DNA from: a virus
Direction: 5' to 3' (one strand)
DNA length: 32,137 bases
Virus record (IMG/VR): IMGVR_UViG_3300031227_000244
Coordinates: 1-32,137 of that record
Both the position numbers and the translations under genes were made by a program. The notes under the pieces were generated by a model. It saw only the letters and a list, made by a program, of their open reading frames with translations, did no database searches and had not been told where the DNA came from. Below are positions 8,846 through 31,570 of this stretch, one piece after another. Position 1 is the stretch's first letter. Every line of letters starts with the position of its first letter.

Positions 8846-9447
8846 CCGATGGCTCCCATCCGTAACTCCTGCGTCTTAACATCCACACGGCGACTCGCAC
8901 AATAATCGGCGAGATGCACGGTTCGGCGAATACGATTTTGCTGCCAGTCCTTGGACCTTGGCGGCGATGTCTTCCAGTCGGGGCATGTCCACCTTCCCAT
9001 ATGATACGCGATGCCGTCAAGGACACGGCGCAACAGTTCGGGCGGTTCTACTCCTGGTGGAAACTTACGCACCGCGATCTCATCGGCCAGTACTGTACCG
9101 TGTATGTTGACGCAGTTCTTCACGGTGGCCCGGCCGTTCACCAGCTTGTCGCCGTTTTTTCGCAGATCGTGAAGGATCAAGGCGGCTATCACAACGTCAT
9201 GTTCGTCCTGATGCCAATCGTCTGTTCTCATAAGCTCAGTCGACCACCACACGGCCAGCTTGGTGTGCCGGATAAGGCCACCCTCGCCAAGTGATATCTG
9301 AGGATGGTATCGGCCTGATGTGGATGCCGGGCACGTCCAGAAATAATCGGGAGCCATCGTATCGATAACGTCGATTACGAAGTTTTTGATGACAGGGTTC
9401 TTGATTCTGTCTAATTCTTCTCTGAATGTCTCTTCGGCTTTGTTCAT
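8842..9447 (-). CDS. HD-domain metal-dependent phosphohydrolase
   Basis: A 201-residue protein starting at the second ATG (9447), which overlaps the upstream TGA and has GGGAG five bases away. The HD signature is complete: a first His in LIRHTKLAVWW, the His-Asp pair in ALILHDLRKNG, further His in CVNIHGTVLADEI and IAYHMGRW, and a terminal Asp in HLADYCASRR. HD proteins of phages hydrolyse phosphate bonds of nucleotides such as dNTPs or cyclic nucleotides. With the HAD nucleotidase and the diphosphohydrolase further along the operon, a role in dNTP-pool control is plausible, but the substrate cannot be read from sequence. Confidence 0.8.
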   Translation of the reverse strand: MNKAEETFREELDRIKNPVIKNFVIDVIDTMAPDYFWTCPASTSGRYHPQISLGEGGLIRHTKLAVWWSTELMRTDDWHQDEHDVVIAALILHDLRKNGDKLVNGRATVKNCVNIHGTVLADEIAVRKFPPGVEPPELLRRVLDGIAYHMGRWTCPDWKTSPPRSKDWQQNRIRRTVHLADYCASRRVDVKTQELRMGAIG

Positions 9448-9935
9448 TTCGTCTCCCATAGGTGTTTCCAGGTACGCTTGGACACTATCATTGATATGTT
9501 ACTCTGCAATACGCCATACTGCTCAGCAATTTCCCTCTGCAAAAATAGCCCGGTCCTATAGGTGTAGATAATCTGTCTCACCTGTTGTTCTGTTAGCTTG
9601 GCATGGCCATGATCTTCCCCTTTAGTGTAAGTGCCGTGCCTGACTTTGTCCCTAATGTTGCTGTAATGCGTATCCCACCTCAAATTCTCAAGCCTATTGT
9701 CTGCCTTGTTCCCATTGTTGTGACAGGCTTCCATTCCCTCGGGACATGGGCCTACATAGGTTTCAAGGACTAGACGGTGGATGCGGATAGTACGACGCCC
9801 CAGCGCGGTTTTCAGGTTAATTAGCTGATAGCCGTCCCTGCAAACATACGGTTTTATCCACTTGTTAGATATCAGCGACCACACCCTACCGCTGCGGGAC
9901 ACCATGTAGTTTTTAGTTGCGTCAGTATAGTGCAT
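9444..9935 (-). CDS. free-standing HNH homing endonuclease (NUMOD4-type)
   Basis: A 163-residue protein. Residues 1-30 are NUMOD4-like (YMVSRSGRVWSLISNKWIKP). Residues 50-90 contain the HNH nuclease core (RIHRLVLETYVGPCPEGMEA, then CHNNGNKADNRLENLRWDT). The C-terminus is a helix-turn-helix of the NUMOD/HTH kind (LTEQQVRQII, later EIAEQYGVLQSNISMIV) that would read the target. The start is the ATG at 9935, overlapping the RecG-like stop (TGATG) with GGAG upstream. It sits between the helicase and HD genes as an intergenic mobile gene. Protein and DNA resemble the HNH gene at 15771-16289, including 24 identical bases. Its likely target lies in one of the flanking genes of a related phage. Confidence 0.9.
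   Translation of the reverse strand: MHYTDATKNYMVSRSGRVWSLISNKWIKPYVCRDGYQLINLKTALGRRTIRIHRLVLETYVGPCPEGMEACHNNGNKADNRLENLRWDTHYSNIRDKVRHGTYTKGEDHGHAKLTEQQVRQIIYTYRTGLFLQREIAEQYGVLQSNISMIVSKRTWKHLWETK
9711..9734. repeat. 24-bp direct repeat shared by two HNH genes
   Basis: These 24 bases are identical to 16041-16064 and lie in the HNH core of both genes (around GMEACHNNG). The flanking 40-50 bases are also alike, so the two genes share recent common ancestry and could recombine. Confidence 0.85.
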
Positions 9936-11926
9936 CAATCTAGCTCCGACAGCGATAGACCTGTGCTGTACCGCGACTTGAGTTCAGATAGGTTTGCTAT
10001 ACGTACAGGATCATCTGCATCTAAGTACATCACTGTAGCCGCCGCTGATCGGGCGTCCAGCATCAACTCGTAGTCAACAACCAGATCCGCCAGCTTCAAG
10101 TCGGGCAACCCATGCTGATGTGTACTCAGCAAATCGCCGGGTCCGCGGATACCAAGATCGATCTCGGCAATTTCAAACCCATCGTTGGTCCGCTCCATAG
10201 CCTTGAGCCTGGCGCGTCCTTCGGCACTCTCTGTATCAGACAGGAGAAAGCAGTACGACTTCTTGTCACTGCGCCCCACGCGGCCACGCAACTGATGGAG
10301 GGTAGCAAGGCCAAAGCGTTCGGCCCCCTCAACAACCATCACGGTGGCGTTGGGGTTGTCGATGCCTACTTCTACAACTGTAGTAGCGACAAGTATCTTA
10401 CCACTCGTACCTGGTAGCTGTCTTGCCCTTGACCACCAACCTTGTACTGCTAATTTATGGCTTGCTGCCATTTTGCCATGTAGTACACCAACTACTGCTC
10501 CTGGGTATCGCTCCCGATACTCCTCTGCAACCTCCTCCACCGCCCGCATCTCGTCATCAAGGGCTTCGATACGCGGGCACACGACGTAGACCTGATGGCC
10601 CCTGGCAAGCTCGCCCTCAATGGTAAAGTCCATATCTGCATACGCCTGACTGGCGGGACCGGGCACCCAACATGTCTCCACGGGCAACCGTCCCGGTGGC
10701 ATTGTCTTGATCACGCTTACGTCCAGGTCACCGAACGCAGTCATCGCGATGGTACGGGGGATCGGCGTGGCCGACATCTTTAGCTGGTGGGGGTTGCCAT
10801 GCTTACGCAGAGCTGCGCGTTGCGCCGCCCCGAAACGATGCTCCTCGTCAACCACAACTAGGCCGAGTTTGTGAAACATAATTCCGGTACTTAGCAATGC
10901 CGTAGTCCCAACCACCACGTCGGCTATATCTAGCCTTGGGTGGTCCGTGTCTGGTCCTACATAAGTCGTAGTACAGCCAGATAGCAATACACATCTCAGC
11001 CCCGCCGCGTCAAAGAATCCCTTGATCGAGCGGTAGTGCTGCTCAGCCAGCACCTGCGTGGGGCACAGGATCGCTGTCTGCCCGCTGTTACAGGCCATCA
11101 GCATAGCAGCGTAGGCGGCAACGGCGGTCTTGCCTGACCCAACGTCCCCCTGGAGGAGGCGGTTCATGGAACCATGCTGGCACATATCAATTAGTACCTG
11201 TCGGGTGGCCCCCAGTTGATCCGGTGTAAAATCAAACGGGAAATACCGCTCCGGGTCCCGCATCATTGGCACACACCGCACATTTGTAGGCTCCGACTCC
11301 CGCCTCTGCTTTCGCACAGCCAGCGCCAGCTGCATATAGAACAACTCGCGGTACTTCTCGTGTTGTACTGCCACATTGTATTCCGCCTGATTCTTCGGGT
11401 TGTGCAGAGACCGCACGGTGTCGTCAGCCAAGTGCAGGGTCTGCTTAACGAACCGACCGATGTCCTTGCTTGTGATTCCGCTGGTCACTGGGTATATTAC
11501 CACACGTAGGTCAGCCAGGTTGGGCTCGCCCTCTATAGGCAACGTGCGGAACTCGGGGTTGACTAGGTGCCCATGCACGTTAAGGACCCCTGTTGCCATT
11601 ATGCGGACACCTTTGTGTATTAGGCGTCTTAACTGGCTCCAGCTGTTGAACCAGATGATTGGCACAGCCTCACCAAATGTGTTGAGGATTGTACATGGGA
11701 ACTGACGACCGTCCCACCCGTCTGCTGTACGGCTTACCTTACCCACCACAGTGATCGTATCACCCAACACCACACCGCTTAGTGATGTAGGTACGGGCGC
11801 AAACTTCACCCGCGTAGGGTAGTGACCATGCAAGTCTTTCACGGTTTCTATGCCGAGCTGCCGAAGGGCTTGGGCCTTCCTTGGCCCGCAACCCCGCAAC
11901 TCGGATACGGGAGTATCCAGTTTCAT
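9935..11926 (-). CDS. recG-like: RecG-like ATP-dependent branched-DNA helicase
   Basis: 663 residues, near the usual length of bacterial RecG (about 690). The N-terminus (VSELRGCGPRKAQALRQLGI) is the typical RecG opening, followed by an OB-fold wedge region (about 50-135). Helicase motifs: Q-motif TPDQ at 234, Walker A GDVGSGKT at 260-267, motif II DEEH at 360-363 (RecG usually has DEQH), motif III SATPIPRT at 385-392, and motifs V-VI (TTVVEVGIDNP, then HQLRGRVGRS) near 540-580. RecG regresses stalled forks and processes Holliday and D-loop structures. In this operon, with a primase-helicase and Sak4-like recombinase, it probably serves recombination-dependent replication. AGGAG precedes the ATG. 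Full-length RecG is uncommon in phages. Confidence 0.92.
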   Translation of the reverse strand: MKLDTPVSELRGCGPRKAQALRQLGIETVKDLHGHYPTRVKFAPVPTSLSGVVLGDTITVVGKVSRTADGWDGRQFPCTILNTFGEAVPIIWFNSWSQLRRLIHKGVRIMATGVLNVHGHLVNPEFRTLPIEGEPNLADLRVVIYPVTSGITSKDIGRFVKQTLHLADDTVRSLHNPKNQAEYNVAVQHEKYRELFYMQLALAVRKQRRESEPTNVRCVPMMRDPERYFPFDFTPDQLGATRQVLIDMCQHGSMNRLLQGDVGSGKTAVAAYAAMLMACNSGQTAILCPTQVLAEQHYRSIKGFFDAAGLRCVLLSGCTTTYVGPDTDHPRLDIADVVVGTTALLSTGIMFHKLGLVVVDEEHRFGAAQRAALRKHGNPHQLKMSATPIPRTIAMTAFGDLDVSVIKTMPPGRLPVETCWVPGPASQAYADMDFTIEGELARGHQVYVVCPRIEALDDEMRAVEEVAEEYRERYPGAVVGVLHGKMAASHKLAVQGWWSRARQLPGTSGKILVATTVVEVGIDNPNATVMVVEGAERFGLATLHQLRGRVGRSDKKSYCFLLSDTESAEGRARLKAMERTNDGFEIAEIDLGIRGPGDLLSTHQHGLPDLKLADLVVDYELMLDARSAAATVMYLDADDPVRIANLSELKSRYSTGLSLSELD

Positions 11927-15770: not shown

Positions 15771-16289
15771 TCAAATATGTGACCAACTTTTTCCACTGCA
15801 GATATAGCCCGCCTGACTGGCCGATATACCAAACACCGTAGCCAGGTCTGCCAGCTTCACCCCCGCACGCCGGAGGTATCTCATCCGCCTAACATCTAGC
15901 TCCCTTAACTTTGCTCTACCACATTTCTCCCCCGGTGTTCTAGATAGCAAACCAGAGGCAGTACCATGTCTAACAGCATCCAGGTTATTTGCGGACCTGG
16001 TATCCCACCTCAAGTTCTCCAATCTATTGTCAAAGGAGTCCCCATTGTTGTGACAGGCTTCCATCCCATCCGGGCAGGGCCCTACGAATGCCTCAAGGAC
16101 AAGTCGATAAACAGATTTATGCACGCCCCTACCACTGGAGTACAGCGATACCCTGGCGTACTTATTGTCACTGCAATCCGGTTGCAGCAGCCTGGGTGTC
16201 CGCCTACTCCTCCTTGGTAGGGACCACACCTGCCCGCTATCCGAGACAGCATACCCCGGGTGCCCCGGTATACCCCGTAATTCACTCAT
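15771..16289 (-). CDS. free-standing HNH homing endonuclease (NUMOD4-type)
   Basis: 172 residues. NUMOD4 motif near the N-terminus (GIPGHPGYAVSDSGQVWSLP), HNH core at about 62-100 (VYRLVLEAFVGPCPDGMEAC, then HNNGDSFDNRLENLRWDTRS), and a C-terminal helix-turn-helix (VKLADLATVFGISASQAGYI). It lies between the SEC-C gene and the possible DNA-binding protein. Its stop (TGA) runs directly into the SD of the gene below, so insertion left the operon intact. It shares clear protein and DNA similarity with the HNH gene at 9444-9935. Its SD (GGGG) is far from the ATG, suggesting weak expression. Confidence 0.9.
   Translation of the reverse strand: MSELRGIPGHPGYAVSDSGQVWSLPRRSRRTPRLLQPDCSDNKYARVSLYSSGRGVHKSVYRLVLEAFVGPCPDGMEACHNNGDSFDNRLENLRWDTRSANNLDAVRHGTASGLLSRTPGEKCGRAKLRELDVRRMRYLRRAGVKLADLATVFGISASQAGYICSGKSWSHI
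16041..16064. repeat. second copy of the 24-bp HNH-gene repeat
   Basis: Identical to 9711-9734 and in the same orientation; it encodes the same HNH core residues in the second free-standing endonuclease. Confidence 0.85.
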
Positions 16290-20766: not shown

Positions 20767-23700
20767 TTATTTCTCGAATCGGTCGCATAGTCGGCCCTCC
20801 GTAGCAACGGGCAACCCCGTCGCCCACTCTGGTATCATCACCTGTAGCTCATGCATCCGCGCCAACCGGGCTTCGGCCTGGTCGTCATCAGATATCAACG
20901 TGATCGCCTGGTCATGCACACTAAACAGCACGGTGAACCCATCATCCTCCAACCGCAGCAGTCCCTCCCCGAAGACGTCGCGGGCACTAGCCTGGACTAC
21001 GTTTTCACAATTGTGGACAAGCCGTGGAATTCCGTCCCCATCTATTACTGTAAACCTATTGTTGGGGCCACAGTCTACTATATCGTAGACGTGTGTAGCG
21101 GAAGCCCGTGGTGGTGTCGGTAGTATAACGTTGGTCTTGGCACTCCTGTTTTTTCTGATAAGTCCTTTATACTGAACGGAAGGGACTTCCGGCGATTTCG
21201 GGCCTGCTCCTGACGTGTTGCCCACCGGCAATTTAGGGGACGGTAACCCTCGTCGTTGTCTATACGCTCTAGCGTCAGTCCCTGCTGATACGAGGGGCCC
21301 ATGTCCTTCCAAAAAGTCTCGAAAGAACATGCCCACTGCCCGCAGACCCTTATACCACGACCCCCATAGTTTTTGTACGCCTGATGCAATGGAAGCATGC
21401 ACCGGCCCTTCATACTTCTCCACACTGCGTAAGCGGGATGCCTCGCCATTCCGTGTGTTTTGCCTATACCCATAGCGGAACATGAACGGCAACCATGTGT
21501 CCCCGACCTGGATTTCCTGGTCAAGTCGCGACCAAGGATCTCGTACTTCTTCCCGCATATGCACTTTACCAGCCAGATAGATTTTGATCCGGTTGACCCA
21601 CGATCTTCTATTACCGTTAGGTTTCCGAACTTCCTTCCAAGTAAGTCCAATCGCCTGCGACCCATTCCTCCACCCCTCTGTTGTAAGAATGCGATGATCC
21701 GGTGTCATATCTACACCATTAAGCCCCATTACTAGCTGCTCACCCTTATAGATCACACCGCGGTGACTACACCACTGTTCGCCATCCCATATTTTGTAAT
21801 AGGACTTTACATCCTCAATTCCCACCACGCCGTGGTCAGTTAGAACCCGTGTGTCCCATGCCACGCAGAGCTTGCCGCCGTAGACATAGTACTTCACCTT
21901 ACCGCTAGTATAGGAGGCATCACCGTCACTTGCCACACGGGCCATCGGATAGAATATACACCGATCAGACGGCAGCACGATGATAGTAGTGTCATCCTGG
22001 TTGAGGAACACAAGCTCGTGTCCGTTGTGGCTTACCGTGGTAGTCTGATCCTTGTACTTGGTGACGAACTTATATGCCCGCTCCAGTTCACCCCAGAACG
22101 CTACAATTTTCTGATACCTGTTTCGATATAACTTAATCAGCTTTATGCAGAATGGCAGATCGTAGATCCCCGCATCGAACAAAGGTCGTAGACTCTTATC
22201 CTGTCGGCATCGCGTGTGGAACGTTCGCCCGCCCATCCCGAATCCGCAGTTAGCTACGATCACATGTCCCGCTTGATACCGGTGCTGGGGACCGGCTTCC
22301 AAGATATCGAACGTGAGATGATTTTCCAGCGCATCGCTTGGAACATAGGGACTGTCCCGCTTGTTTACGTGTGAATTGTCCCCCGCACTCAAGACACACG
22401 CTTGTTGTTCCGTGTCCATCTTTTCTGGTTCTACATGTGTTGTGCATTTGTTCTGATCGTGTTGCAAACCGAAGATTTCCCGGCCTGTATCCCGCATCGT
22501 TATTAACGCGGTCGATTTCAAGGCTTCGGTCATCCCATCCAGGGATAGTGACCAGATACCTAAGAAAAGCTGCTCTATCCGTGACCCACACAGGCCACAC
22601 TCGGACACCTCTTCCGCCATATCGTTTATGTTTGTGTCTTTCACACCTGCTAATGATCGCAGAAATCCGGTTGCGTAATCGTTTCCTGTGTGCTGCGGGT
22701 ATCTCTGGAGCAATTGATTGAGAGACGCCAGATTTAATTTTAGCACAGACGTTACAACGTGTACTGCTCCCGGCGATAAGGCTGTCGCGGTGCGGAGATA
22801 CTGTTCGACCACAGGAGCAGCGGCATTCCACGGACTTAATCCCGCCCCGCGGGCCATATACAACCGCCGTGACAGTAAACTCTCCGTACACACTTCCGAT
22901 GCTGGGCTGCTGATGCTTAGGCTGTGCGCCAGGCACCACCCTTGGTCTGTTAGGATCTCGTGATCTGGTGTTATCCATATGCCCTGTAGATTTACACATG
23001 CCTTTACCCCCCTACACACCACACCGCCGTGGCTCACATATTCTACCCCGTCCCACAGCAGGTCGTCTTTGGTTATTGCCTCGATTGCCTTATACCCAGA
23101 ATCTGTTAGTACCGGAGACCCTGCGGCCAGGCAAGCTAAAATTGTCATTTTCCCGAAATCACGTCGGATGGATAGTTGCTCGGCCAGTTCCGGGCTGGAT
23201 GCCCACTCTTCCTTAGTGGGATTGTGCGTTTCCTCATGAAAGATGTGCTCCTGGGCAAACTCAGAATAGATATCAGTACCCGCGGCGAACGCATCCACCA
23301 AGTCTGTTTGTCCCGATAGCCAAGCAACCTTGCGGGCCTCTATTTGTTTGAGATCGCCGGTCCCCATCAGGTAGCCGTGGGGTGCGAGCAGCATCTTGCC
23401 GACATCCTTGATCAGGGGGTGGACATCCCTGGCCCCGAGGTTCTGGGCGTTTATCTTGCCGCTGCCGCTCCAGCGCCCAAGGTGCCCACCATAATAGTTC
23501 AACGGGATACCCAGCATCCCATCCCGGCACCGCGCCTGGGCCAGGATACGCTGCACCCGCTTGACATGGTTAGGCCATGACTTAATAGCCAGTCGTGCCT
23601 CAGCCAATGCCCGAACGGCGGGGACCGGGTGATTCAGCAGCCATTTGAACCCATCGTCCATCTTGGAGAACGTGGGGATCGTTGCTTTCTTGCCCTGCTT

Positions 23701-24582
23701 CATCGGCACTGTCTCGCCTTCGGGCAGGACCTGATTGAACAGGTTGATCAGCAGTGCGTTCTTGGATATATCCTCAGCCTCAATCTGCCTGATCACTGGT
23801 GGCTTGCTGGATCGTTTGAGAAAACGTGGCGATTGGATCGACAGTATACCGTACTCGTGCGTAGCCTCAATCGCCTTACCTACTTGATCGCTCATCTCTG
23901 TGACAAGCCGATCACCAAGCTCGGTGTCGACAACGATGTTGGGCACCAGGAACATACGCAGCGTCTGGGCTGCCAGTCGTAGCTCAACATCAGGCCGCTT
24001 GATCATCGGCAGTAGCTTCTTGAGCAGGAACGCCGTGATGTCGATGTCGTTGCGACAGTACCCTGACAGGGCTTTCCAATCGTACTCGGACATATCCGCC
24101 GCGTGCAGTCCCTTGAACTGATTGGTGTCACCCTTTGGCGTTGGTGCCCCGTACTTCTTGGCCAAGTGTTCCAGGCTGTGGTGGTTCCTTGCGTCCATGT
24201 GGCGGGACAGATCACGGGTGTCGACGGTGTACTTAGGGGTGATACCGTACTTCTCCCGCAGAATCAACAGGTCAAAGTACAGATTATGGCCGACTACCGT
24301 GCAGCGTTCGAGGTTGGGGCCGTAATTATGCGGGTCCTGTAGCTCTTCTAGTGTATTGCTAACGGTATCTGCCCGGTGAAACCAAGGTCCCTCATTCTCA
24401 CCCAGACCCATGACCCCGAGCCCAGTAATTTCAAATTTCGCGTCGCCGACATACTGCGGGATGTCCATATGCTTCTGGCGCAGGTTGTAGTCCGCGGCAA
24501 AGTAAGATTCAAAATCTAGGACAATTGTGTCCGTAGGAAACCCCGCTGATGCAAGCACACCCTGGTATGGTTCAAGACTCAC
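20767..24582 (-). CDS. family A DNA polymerase with 3'-5' exonuclease, interrupted by two inteins
   Basis: From the GTG at 24582 (GAGG six bases upstream) the precursor has 1271 residues; after removal of both inteins it is about 690. Residue numbers below count from the longer frame starting at 24630. Exonuclease: DFES (D39, E41), VGHNLYFD (N116, D120) and YCRND (Y191, D195). Polymerase: motif A GDLKQIEAR (D426), motif B RRDFGK (R490, K494) continuing after intein 1 as CGFGMGG, and motif C VHDQ (H1239, D1240). The residue four after the motif B Lys is Leu498, the equivalent of E. coli Pol I Phe762, a Leu type often seen in environmental phages. VHDQ replaces the usual VHDE. Each intein ends in Asn followed by Cys, so splicing restores the polymerase chain. 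Confidence 0.93.
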   Translation of the reverse strand: MSLEPYQGVLASAGFPTDTIVLDFESYFAADYNLRQKHMDIPQYVGDAKFEITGLGVMGLGENEGPWFHRADTVSNTLEELQDPHNYGPNLERCTVVGHNLYFDLLILREKYGITPKYTVDTRDLSRHMDARNHHSLEHLAKKYGAPTPKGDTNQFKGLHAADMSEYDWKALSGYCRNDIDITAFLLKKLLPMIKRPDVELRLAAQTLRMFLVPNIVVDTELGDRLVTEMSDQVGKAIEATHEYGILSIQSPRFLKRSSKPPVIRQIEAEDISKNALLINLFNQVLPEGETVPMKQGKKATIPTFSKMDDGFKWLLNHPVPAVRALAEARLAIKSWPNHVKRVQRILAQARCRDGMLGIPLNYYGGHLGRWSGSGKINAQNLGARDVHPLIKDVGKMLLAPHGYLMGTGDLKQIEARKVAWLSGQTDLVDAFAAGTDIYSEFAQEHIFHEETHNPTKEEWASSPELAEQLSIRRDFGKMTILACLAAGSPVLTDSGYKAIEAITKDDLLWDGVEYVSHGGVVCRGVKACVNLQGIWITPDHEILTDQGWCLAHSLSISSPASEVCTESLLSRRLYMARGAGLSPWNAAAPVVEQYLRTATALSPGAVHVVTSVLKLNLASLNQLLQRYPQHTGNDYATGFLRSLAGVKDTNINDMAEEVSECGLCGSRIEQLFLGIWSLSLDGMTEALKSTALITMRDTGREIFGLQHDQNKCTTHVEPEKMDTEQQACVLSAGDNSHVNKRDSPYVPSDALENHLTFDILEAGPQHRYQAGHVIVANCGFGMGGRTFHTRCRQDKSLRPLFDAGIYDLPFCIKLIKLYRNRYQKIVAFWGELERAYKFVTKYKDQTTTVSHNGHELVFLNQDDTTIIVLPSDRCIFYPMARVASDGDASYTSGKVKYYVYGGKLCVAWDTRVLTDHGVVGIEDVKSYYKIWDGEQWCSHRGVIYKGEQLVMGLNGVDMTPDHRILTTEGWRNGSQAIGLTWKEVRKPNGNRRSWVNRIKIYLAGKVHMREEVRDPWSRLDQEIQVGDTWLPFMFRYGYRQNTRNGEASRLRSVEKYEGPVHASIASGVQKLWGSWYKGLRAVGMFFRDFLEGHGPLVSAGTDARAYRQRRGLPSPKLPVGNTSGAGPKSPEVPSVQYKGLIRKNRSAKTNVILPTPPRASATHVYDIVDCGPNNRFTVIDGDGIPRLVHNCENVVQASARDVFGEGLLRLEDDGFTVLFSVHDQAITLISDDDQAEARLARMHELQVMIPEWATGLPVATEGRLCDRFEK
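21010..21867 (-). other. intein 2 in DNA polymerase just before motif C
   Basis: Residues 922-1207 of the long frame, 286 residues. Block A starts at Cys922 (CVAWDTRVLTDHGVVGIEDV), block B is DMTPDHRILT with T976 and H979, and block F is VYDIVDCGPNNRFTVIDGDG. It ends with the canonical LVHN followed by extein Cys1208. It interrupts the conserved YGGKL-CENVVQ segment between motifs B and C. The intein frame between blocks B and F again shows no endonuclease similarity, because the DNA there encodes the HNH protein 21078-21665 in another phase. Confidence 0.92.
21078..21665 (-). CDS. HNH homing endonuclease nested out of frame in intein 2
   Basis: 195 residues, same strand as the polymerase, shifted by one base (+1). 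Its ATG comes immediately after intein block B and has its own SD (GAGGGGTGGAGG). Opening LLGRKFGNLTVIEDRG, zinc ligands C35/C37 and C59/C62, then HPAYAVWRSMKGRCM, YKNYGGRGIRVCGQW and LERIDNDEGYRPLNCRWATR with QEQARNRR: all hallmarks of the phage HNH family. The C-terminus is a helix-turn-helix (SIKDLSEKTGVPRPTLYYRH). The stop lies inside block F. This protein resembles textbook members more closely than the intein 1 protein does, so it may be the more recent arrival. Confidence 0.88.
   Translation of the reverse strand: MGRRRLDLLGRKFGNLTVIEDRGSTGSKSIWLVKCICGKKYEILGRDLTRKSRSGTHGCRSCSAMGIGKTHGMARHPAYAVWRSMKGRCMLPLHQAYKNYGGRGIRVCGQWACSFETFWKDMGPSYQQGLTLERIDNDEGYRPLNCRWATRQEQARNRRKSLPFSIKDLSEKTGVPRPTLYYRHHHGLPLHTSTI
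22249..23133 (-). other. intein 1 in DNA polymerase motif B (O-helix)
   Basis: Residues 500-794 of the long frame, 295 residues. Block A starts at Cys500 (CLAAGSPVLTDSGYKAIEAI). Block B is WITPDHEILT with T554 and H557. Block F is FDILEAGPQHRYQAGHVIVA, the terminal residue is Asn794, and the first downstream extein residue is Cys795. The residue before Asn is Ala instead of His, as in some phage inteins. The insertion splits the O-helix between Lys494 and the Tyr766-equivalent Phe797, so the unspliced enzyme should be inactive. The intein frame between blocks B and F (about residues 566-768) has no endonuclease similarity; it is the out-of-frame reading of the HNH gene at 22250-22999. Confidence 0.9.
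22250..22999 (-). CDS. HNH homing endonuclease nested out of frame in intein 1
   Basis: 249 residues, read on the same strand as the polymerase but two bases out of phase (+2). An AGGGGGG stretch lies about eight bases before the ATG; an internal ATG at 22978 is a second choice. Residues 1-30 overlap intein block B. The conserved part begins IGSVYGEFTVTAV (34-46). Zinc ligands follow in ECRCSCG (C59, C61, C63) and RCNVC (C82, C85), then YGGRGVRVWPVW (127-138), and LEIDRVNNDAGYRPGNLRFA (160-179) with RSEQMHNT, the HNH core of this phage family. A C-terminal four-Cys element (C202, C205, C219, C223) follows. The stop TAA falls within the last intein codons. It should cut an intein-less polymerase gene. 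Confidence 0.85.
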   Translation of the reverse strand: MCKSTGHMDNTRSRDPNRPRVVPGAQPKHQQPSIGSVYGEFTVTAVVYGPRGGIKSVECRCSCGRTVSPHRDSLIAGSSTRCNVCAKIKSGVSQSIAPEIPAAHRKRLRNRISAIISRCERHKHKRYGGRGVRVWPVWVTDRAAFLRYLVTIPGWDDRSLEIDRVNNDAGYRPGNLRFATRSEQMHNTCRTRKDGHGTTSVCLECGGQFTRKQAGQSLCSKRCAGKSSHVRYLGSRSPAPVSSGTCDRS

Positions 24583-25081
24583 TCGGCACCTCGATCCAGA
24601 GCCCCATCCTGATATCGCCCTCCACGACACACCGCGTGAGGATTTGCTGTAAGTGTAGCTTGTTGCCCCGATCGTCTGTCATGGCAAGCATACCCCGGAT
24701 CTCATCCATGTAGCACCTGATATGCTCCTCATTCTCATCGCCGGTCAAGACCAGCCTCCAATACAATTGGATCAGCCATGATAGCCGGGTATACAGGCAA
24801 GCGAGTGCTGGCAGTCGGCCAGCCCCCCTGTCTCCGGCTAGGTTAGGACCCGTGGCTCGATACGGCAGCCTGAGCTGATCGCATATGCCGCCCGGCTTGA
24901 CTGCGTTCTTGAACTTGACAAGCATCTCTTGCCACCCCGGCACGTACGTGACGCGGGACAGGTCATCAAGCAGGGCGCGGATATCAGCACCAAGCTGATC
25001 GTTCCGCTGCTTCTCCGTGGCCCCGGGGAACAAGGGTGCCCTAGGCATTGGTGGTATGGCGGGCGGCGGCGGTATATACAT
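24572..25081 (-). CDS. hypothetical protein upstream of DNA polymerase
   Basis: 169 residues from the ATG at 25081 (AAGGGG upstream); a GTG at 25087 is possible. The N-terminus is Pro-rich (MYIPPPPAIPPMPRAPLFPG) and probably disordered. The rest is helical, with a Trp/Tyr/Leu-rich stretch (ALACLYTRLSWLIQLYWRLV) that could be a buried helix or a membrane-associated one. Its end overlaps the polymerase start by 11 bases, so the two are coupled. A role as a polymerase partner is a guess from position. Confidence 0.5.
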   Translation of the reverse strand: MYIPPPPAIPPMPRAPLFPGATEKQRNDQLGADIRALLDDLSRVTYVPGWQEMLVKFKNAVKPGGICDQLRLPYRATGPNLAGDRGAGRLPALACLYTRLSWLIQLYWRLVLTGDENEEHIRCYMDEIRGMLAMTDDRGNKLHLQQILTRCVVEGDIRMGLWIEVPSES

Positions 25082-30815: not shown

Positions 30816-31187
30816 ACGTTTTCTTTGGCCAGGGGTTAAATACCTATTTCGCCAGTCCTCTGGGCGTGTCGTCACTATCACAGTGGGCGCTGGTGGGGTA
30901 GGCGTGACGGGTACCGGTGGGGTGATTACGGGCTTAGGCTTAGGCTTGCACCTGAATTTAACAGGTATGCCCATAAGCGAGGCCCACGTACGTTTGGATA
31001 CTTGCTCACTTCCGAAGAAGTACCGGCTCTTCTTGGTCTCATGGTACCGTCGCAGTATTTCCCGGTTGTTGTGTAGGGGTATACAACCCCATGATGTCCA
31101 TTGGGCTACGTCGCGGCATCTGGCGAAACCAGCCATGTATAGAGATCGGCTTGCCTCGTGGTAATAGACTGTGCGCCGTTTCATCAT
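30801..31187 (-). CDS. hypothetical protein with Pro-rich linker
   Basis: 128 residues. Residues 1-80 form a compact basic domain (MMKRRTVYYHEASRSLYMAG, later REILRRYHETKKSRYFFGSE). A Pro/Thr/Val-rich linker (about 82-108) follows, then a basic tail (WRNRYLTPGQRKRLQPT). The ATG overlaps the HNH stop, with GGGGGG upstream. It may be a nucleic-acid-binding early protein; not recognised. Confidence 0.5.
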   Translation of the reverse strand: MMKRRTVYYHEASRSLYMAGFARCRDVAQWTSWGCIPLHNNREILRRYHETKKSRYFFGSEQVSKRTWASLMGIPVKFRCKPKPKPVITPPVPVTPTPPAPTVIVTTRPEDWRNRYLTPGQRKRLQPT

Positions 31188-31552
31188 TCTGTAGCCCCCC
31201 TTGCATACCAGGGCCGTGATCGGCTTGTACGGGGCTTAGGACCGGCCAGGATAAGATTCTCGACCCTATCGTCGGTCTTATCCCCGTTGATGTGCCTGAT
31301 CTTTTGACGGGGGCGTATCGGCCCGATGAAGGTCCAGTAAAGCAGACGGTGTACTGTGTGCGTGCGCTGGCCGTTTGGGCCGACCAGGGCAACGGTACGG
31401 TATCCAGCCGCGTTCACCGAGCCCTTTATGTGCCAGTTGCGTTTGAGGTTCCAAACCATGCCATCACGAGTGATACCGTATTGGGGGGTGATGGGGATTG
31501 GGGTCACATGGAACATTCCGGCTTGTGGGTGTAAGATGTGTTGCTCTGTCAT
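31184..31552 (-). CDS. HNH homing endonuclease (NUMOD4-HNH type)
   Basis: 122 residues from the ATG at 31552 (AGGAG eight bases away); GTG at 31558 is less likely. NUMOD4-like YGITRDGMVWNLKRNWHIKG at about 25-44, then TVHRLLYWTFIGPIRPRQKI and RHINGDKTDDRVENLILAG, an HNH core with Asn/His in RHINGDK. It has lost the C-terminal HTH of the other two free-standing enzymes and ends in a basic tail. It is the first gene of the leftward operon. Confidence 0.82.
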   Translation of the reverse strand: MTEQHILHPQAGMFHVTPIPITPQYGITRDGMVWNLKRNWHIKGSVNAAGYRTVALVGPNGQRTHTVHRLLYWTFIGPIRPRQKIRHINGDKTDDRVENLILAGPKPRTSRSRPWYARGATE

Positions 31553-31570
31553 TTCCACTTCTCCTATATA

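Follow-up and report, generated by a model that had tools for sequence, protein, structure and literature searches.

A family-A DNA polymerase gene from an uncultivated virus contains two insertions, and each of them is very probably a composite mobile element, consisting of an intein in the frame of the polymerase and a separate HNH endonuclease gene in another frame; protein splicing, translation of the HNH protein, and its cutting of empty sites are inferred. The window (the whole stretch of DNA that was analysed, 32,137 nucleotides) is taken from an uncultivated virus record and, like the sequences of the related viruses L011 and L133, is a metagenome assembly. The features of the polymerase region are as follows:

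20767..24630, minus strand: phage family-A DNA polymerase with a 3'-5' exonuclease domain; 1287 aa, two inteins, ~706 aa of extein
22249..23133, minus strand: intein 1; 295 aa, motif B, Hint blocks at both ends, middle (~residues 87-260) predicted to be disordered
22250..22999, minus strand: hidden HNH1 ORF; 249 aa, ATG start; the polymerase frame is +1 relative to the HNH1 frame
23007..23013, minus strand: Shine-Dalgarno-like AGGGGGG upstream of the HNH1 ATG; duplex energy -12.3 kcal/mol
21010..21867, minus strand: intein 2; 286 aa, motif C, GGKL^C ... VHN^CENVVQ
21078..21665, minus strand: hidden HNH2 ORF; 195 aa; the polymerase frame is +2 relative to the HNH2 frame
21666..21678, minus strand: Shine-Dalgarno-like GAGGGGTGGAGGA directly upstream of the HNH2 ATG; duplex energy -12.0 kcal/mol

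The polymerase ORF matches PHROG 17 DNA polymerase (1e-47) and, in Pfam, DNA_pol_A_exo1 (2e-8) and DNA_pol_A (4.9e-8, just under the gathering score). The junctions of intein 1 are ILA^CLAAGSPVLT ... VIVAN^CGFGMGG; here Ala, not the usual penultimate His, precedes the terminal Asn. Comparison of 38 intein 1 relatives in the polymerase frame shows that C1, G13, T55, H58, W66, D276, and N295 are invariant, block B TxxH is kept, and the residue after the terminal Asn is either Cys or Ser; conservation in this frame is restricted to the Hint ends. In the AlphaFold model, pLDDT is 92-98 at the ends of intein 1 and below 50 in the middle, and ~170 residues between the Hint ends are predicted to be disordered; in agreement with the earlier note on this DNA, which had claimed no recognisable domain there, a Pfam search finds no domain in the polymerase-frame middle. 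Foldseek comparison of the model with solved inteins yields the Mtu RecA and Ssp DnaB inteins (E 3e-4), and the sequence profile matches the Mtu RecA mini-intein (E 2e-5). Judging by these motifs and the model, the ends of intein 1 form a Hint splicing domain, protein splicing itself being inferred. The site of intein 2 is also occupied in Caulobacter phage GB2A.

The HNH1 ORF begins after residue 44 of intein 1, and ends in a stop codon (22250-22252) that lies across the final two codons of the intein; the HNH2 ORF begins after residue 67 of intein 2 and stops ~22 codons short of the intein end. HNH1 has zinc Cys pairs (C61/C63/C82/C85) and the core YGGRG ... LEIDRVNNDAGYRPGNLRF, and the conservation of the HNH frame is centred in the middle (zinc Cys pairs, YGGRGI, GWDxPxLEMDRIDND, YEPGNxRF). 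Both hidden ORFs match PHROG 374 HNH endonuclease (HNH1, 4e-29; HNH2, 5e-55), and the core of HNH1 is modelled by AlphaFold with pLDDT 86-98. A Pfam search gives no HNH match; Foldseek comparison of the HNH model with the PDB gives nothing significant, the best HNH match being PacI (E 1.2), which is also the best, if weak, HNH profile match among solved structures (E 0.36). The first canonical HNH histidine is apparently replaced by Asp-Arg. The putative identity of the hidden ORFs as HNH-type endonucleases rests on the PHROG profiles, and enzyme activity is inferred; the hidden HNH is the sole endonuclease candidate within intein 1. The coordinates, frames, and motifs that the earlier note had given for intein 1 and HNH1 hold on re-reading of the sequence, as do its claims that HNH1 has its own Shine-Dalgarno site (AGGGGGG just upstream of the ATG) and a stop within the final intein codons; the profile search of both frames that it had proposed gives PHROG 374 in the HNH frame and an intein profile in the polymerase frame, but no Pfam HNH.

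Three free-standing HNH_3 genes, one or two of them with NUMOD4, are located elsewhere in the window (9447-9938, 15774-16289, and 31187-31558, all on the minus strand); counting the hidden ones, the virus thus has five HNH genes or more.

When phage genomes are searched by tblastn with HNH1 as the query, matches fall within DNA polymerase genes of EBPR siphovirus 2, Vibrio phage 97.13, and ~150 Salmonella jerseyviruses; in EBPR siphovirus 2, Vibrio phage 97.13, and the enteric phage f18SE, the HNH is out of frame, at an equal offset, in a motif B intein. Scans of IMG/VR with the HNH1 and HNH2 alignments provide 80 and 42 further loci, respectively. The 123 loci were collected through HNH similarity alone, and near-identical loci are included in the counts; the frame relation was read directly for the listed loci and inferred from near identity for the other jerseyvirus records. 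At 90 of the 123 loci, a long host ORF encloses the HNH in a different frame: 73/87 in the HNH1 family (62 with offset +1, 11 with offset +2) and 17/36 examined loci in the HNH2 family (all +2). In-frame HNH fusions are found at 0/123 loci, the longest HNH-frame ORF having 324 codons; with this count, the disordered model, and the absence of a Pfam domain in the middle, an in-frame endonuclease domain of the intein was rejected. The earlier note was right that an HNH gene is hidden in intein 1, but not in treating it as a single oddity: the arrangement defines a widespread class, comprising no fewer than three HNH lineages, and occurs twice in this polymerase gene, intein 2 having been omitted by the note. 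In a jerseyvirus-like genome (L052:3500-4100), insertions in the intein join part of Hint-N to the HNH frame; this locus was considered as a natural Hint-N/HNH fusion ("fractured" gene) and rejected, since it differs from f18SE by two single-base insertions, for which sequencing error is as likely.

Substitutions in close pairs number 121/74/293 at HNH codon positions 1/2/3 in the HNH core, and 46/24/95 at polymerase codon positions 1/2/3 in the N-terminal Hint part; hence, constraint passes from the polymerase frame to the HNH frame within the intein. The comparison of codon constraint in homologues, also proposed by the earlier note, agrees with its dual-coding claim: omega (dN/dS) is mostly 0.07-0.27 in the HNH frame and mostly at or above 1 in the polymerase frame. 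Pairwise omegas are biased in overlapping genes, and the contrast counts more than the values. By these substitution patterns, the nested HNH is under purifying selection, while the polymerase frame over it seems to be selected just for the absence of stops. L044/L045 retain an open host frame, but a stop codon and the loss of the catalytic core have destroyed their HNH; such decay would be expected for the late phase of a homing cycle. The polymerase ORF of L044/L045 has 1268 aa.

Ribosome-binding energies at the nested HNH starts (medians -8.05 and -8.40 kcal/mol) are stronger than at random starts in the same loci (-4.90), and textbook GGAGG sites precede several nested starts, e.g., in L070 and L067. 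In the +1 lineage, many start codons overlap conserved Hint WDGxEW codons, and in the HNH2 lineage, the purine run is supplied by EGW codons, the Hint codons for T-E-G-W encoding GAGGGGTGGAGGA before HNH2 itself; due to this overlap, the Shine-Dalgarno signal may come partly from the protein motif. The HNH is most likely made by internal initiation; independent translation is inferred, and frameshifting is not excluded.

In the proposed mechanism, the Hint domain at the ends of the insert would excise it and ligate the polymerase, the intein middle in the polymerase frame being merely an open, unstructured linker; the HNH would be made separately, from its own start codon and a Shine-Dalgarno site in the N-terminal Hint coding region. 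The HNH is inferred to cut intein-less polymerase alleles of co-infecting viruses, and repair of a cut allele would copy the whole element across (homing). Intein 1 is identical in the sister virus L011 (885/885 bases), while the exteins are ~84% identical, and the first mismatches lie 16 bp away on the upstream side and 9 bp away on the downstream side. A chimeric assembly is unlikely, as the shared tract ends within fewer bases than the usual assembler k-mers. L011 lacks intein 2, with a clean, precise 858-bp empty site, and the third relative, L133, lacks both inteins. In enteric phages, the sequences on either side of the f18SE intein align unbroken to S119 (94.7%) and several hundred other records, and empty site 1 is contiguous in jerseyviruses. 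These alignments indicate recent mobility of intein 1, or its transfer, between the sister viruses.

Of the alternative explanations, two would remove one member of the pair, by denying either that both frames are real or that the insert is an intein. The polymerase frame might be open by chance or through sequencing error, as long spurious ORFs are possible in phage DNA, and in the L052 relative this frame is broken by two single-base insertions. When synonymous HNH codons are shuffled and stops are counted in the polymerase or host frame, however, 0 stops are observed for HNH1 against a mean of 6.0, and 0 for HNH2 against 7.4 (p <= 3e-4 for each); over the nested loci, 0 stops are seen against 156.1 expected (49 nonidentical +1 loci), 58.6 (11 +2 loci), and 91.4 (17 HNH2 loci, +2). 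The controls follow the expectation, both for the third frame (633 vs 636) and for free-standing relatives (70 vs 73 and 180 vs 184). The zero counts are partly definitional, since an open host frame is required for a locus to count as nested; the argument against chance is that most relatives collected through HNH similarity only are nested, each at low chance. The frame relation also recurs in isolates from different sequencing groups, and chance or error can practically be dismissed: the open polymerase frame over the HNH is neither a chance occurrence nor a frameshift. A sequencing frameshift and a closed polymerase frame in homologues, both named by the earlier note as possible refutations, are not seen, the frame being open at 73/87 HNH1-family loci and even where the HNH has decayed (L044/L045). 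Its central claim, that one stretch of DNA codes for both the intein interior and a separate HNH protein, is supported by the absence of stops and the switch in constraint, with splicing and activity inferred. The insert might instead be a group I intron that encodes an HNH and is spliced out of the RNA, as annotated for Sodalis phage SO-1 gp38/gp39, where the record reads "type I self-splicing intron"; intron-encoded HNH enzymes are common in phages. No Rfam intron match is found, however, in this region of the window or in 14 nested loci including SO-1, and C1, TxxH, D276, and N295 before Cys/Ser are kept in the open host frame, although an intron needs none of them; we consider an intron extremely improbable.

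The two other alternatives accept the overlap, but differ in how the HNH is made or what it does. Programmed frameshifting, by which ribosomes would pass from the N-terminal Hint to the HNH frame, would yield a polymerase-Hint-HNH fusion and no free protein, and is compatible with overlapping frames whose direction is fixed within each lineage. Still, there is little room for it, since just 4 codons (HNH1) or 13 codons (HNH2) separate the opening of the HNH frame from the ATG; relatives differ in where this frame opens; and strong Shine-Dalgarno sites lie ahead of the HNH starts, which makes this route quite unlikely. Similarly little credence can be given to the hidden HNH being a decaying passenger of an intein that spreads by vertical descent or ordinary recombination. 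Dead copies do exist in L044/L045 (a stop and a catalytic core deletion, with the polymerase frame open), but the low omega of the HNH frame (mostly 0.07-0.27) and the recent move of intein 1 with sharp boundaries speak against this.

For the preferred reading, an intein carrying a separately translated HNH gene, the HNH tree bears on its origin. Five transitions between the free, +1 nested, and +2 nested states are needed on the tree (shuffled mean 39.8), which contains no fewer than three groups of nested HNHs. HNH1 of the window belongs to a group with offset +1 at motif B; L070, L010, and relatives form one with offset +2 at motif B; and HNH2 of the window, GB2A, and APSE-2 belong to one with offset +2, mostly at motif C, that lies among free-standing HNH genes. 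HNH2-type hidden ORFs are also seen in inteins of other host genes, encoding an SNF2-type helicase (L106:2725-5214) and the terminase large subunit (L119:1705-4227). Free-standing HNH relatives are located mostly away from polymerase genes, adjoining them only in L104 and the damaged L052; in L104, a free-standing relative of HNH2 is found ~2 kb upstream of an intein-less polymerase gene. The family-A polymerase ORFs L071:1435-5295 and L078:1225-5259 have a uracil-DNA-glycosylase-like domain at the N-terminus. No relative was found when bacterial and archaeal genomes were searched with the polymerase-frame intein.

The simplest reading of these sequence relationships would be repeated capture of free-standing endonuclease genes by mini-inteins, and nesting in a different frame points to at least three invasions of a mini-intein by a free-standing endonuclease gene. 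The number of captures is tentative, since the tree was built by a quick method and leaves many forks unresolved. On balance we lean, with some reserve, toward phage inteins having captured whole free-standing endonuclease genes out of frame at least three times, yielding dual-coded composites with splicing and homing parts translated separately. If so, these loci would show mobile inteins caught midway in their formation, with an endonuclease gene invading a mini-intein, not a domain fusion.

The arrangement would be a second way in which selfish elements can harbour the enzyme believed to spread them. It is present in three lineages or more and probably in >150 published phage genomes, and its host genes encode polymerase, SNF2 helicase, or terminase; many "mini-inteins" annotated without an endonuclease may carry a hidden one. 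The acquisition of endonucleases by inteins becomes testable in cultured phages, as intein-plus and intein-minus relatives exist. The loci also provide a clean natural case of long dual coding, with one frame apparently constrained only to stay open.

In conventional inteins, the endonuclease is an in-frame domain of the intein. An example with an in-frame HNH is the intein in the dCTP deaminase of cyanophage CL131 (PMC6293099). Like conventional LAGLIDADG and HNH inteins, the present ones have Hint interrupted at the usual endonuclease insertion point, are located at a conserved active-site motif, and have an inferred homing life cycle; in contrast to them, they leave the endonuclease to a gene of its own in a different frame, and the in-frame middle is predicted to be unstructured. 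The fractured genes of Dassa et al., from 2009, are reportedly split inteins whose halves flank a free-standing endonuclease gene. They share with the present loci an endonuclease that is its own gene within the intein locus; however, in fractured genes both the host gene and the intein are broken in two, whereas here one continuous ORF reads through the endonuclease gene. In GenBank, a nested ORF is present in the polymerase gene of APSE-1 (P45/P46) and of Sodalis phage SO-1 (gp38/gp39), in an arrangement equal to the present one; the records call it an overlapping gene or an intron ORF, and no analysis of either as an intein with a hidden HNH was found. In the Felix O1 genome paper, a differing frame was used to rule out inteins (PMC3185647). 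No paper on hidden HNH genes in inteins was found in the open-licence literature (subscription papers were not covered). The closest published case is ShiLan, a non-intein insertion: an out-of-frame ("hidden") HNH domain in mycobacteriophage methylases (Arsenault et al., 2025, PMC11855218). As in the present loci, the insertion can be read through in the host frame and hides an HNH ORF in another, and a sporadic distribution suggests homing. The ShiLan insertion has no intein motifs, is thought to stay in the methylase, and has no Shine-Dalgarno site that could be found (PMC11855218), whereas the insertions described here are inteins with Hint blocks, reside in polymerase, helicase, and terminase genes, and usually have a Shine-Dalgarno site.
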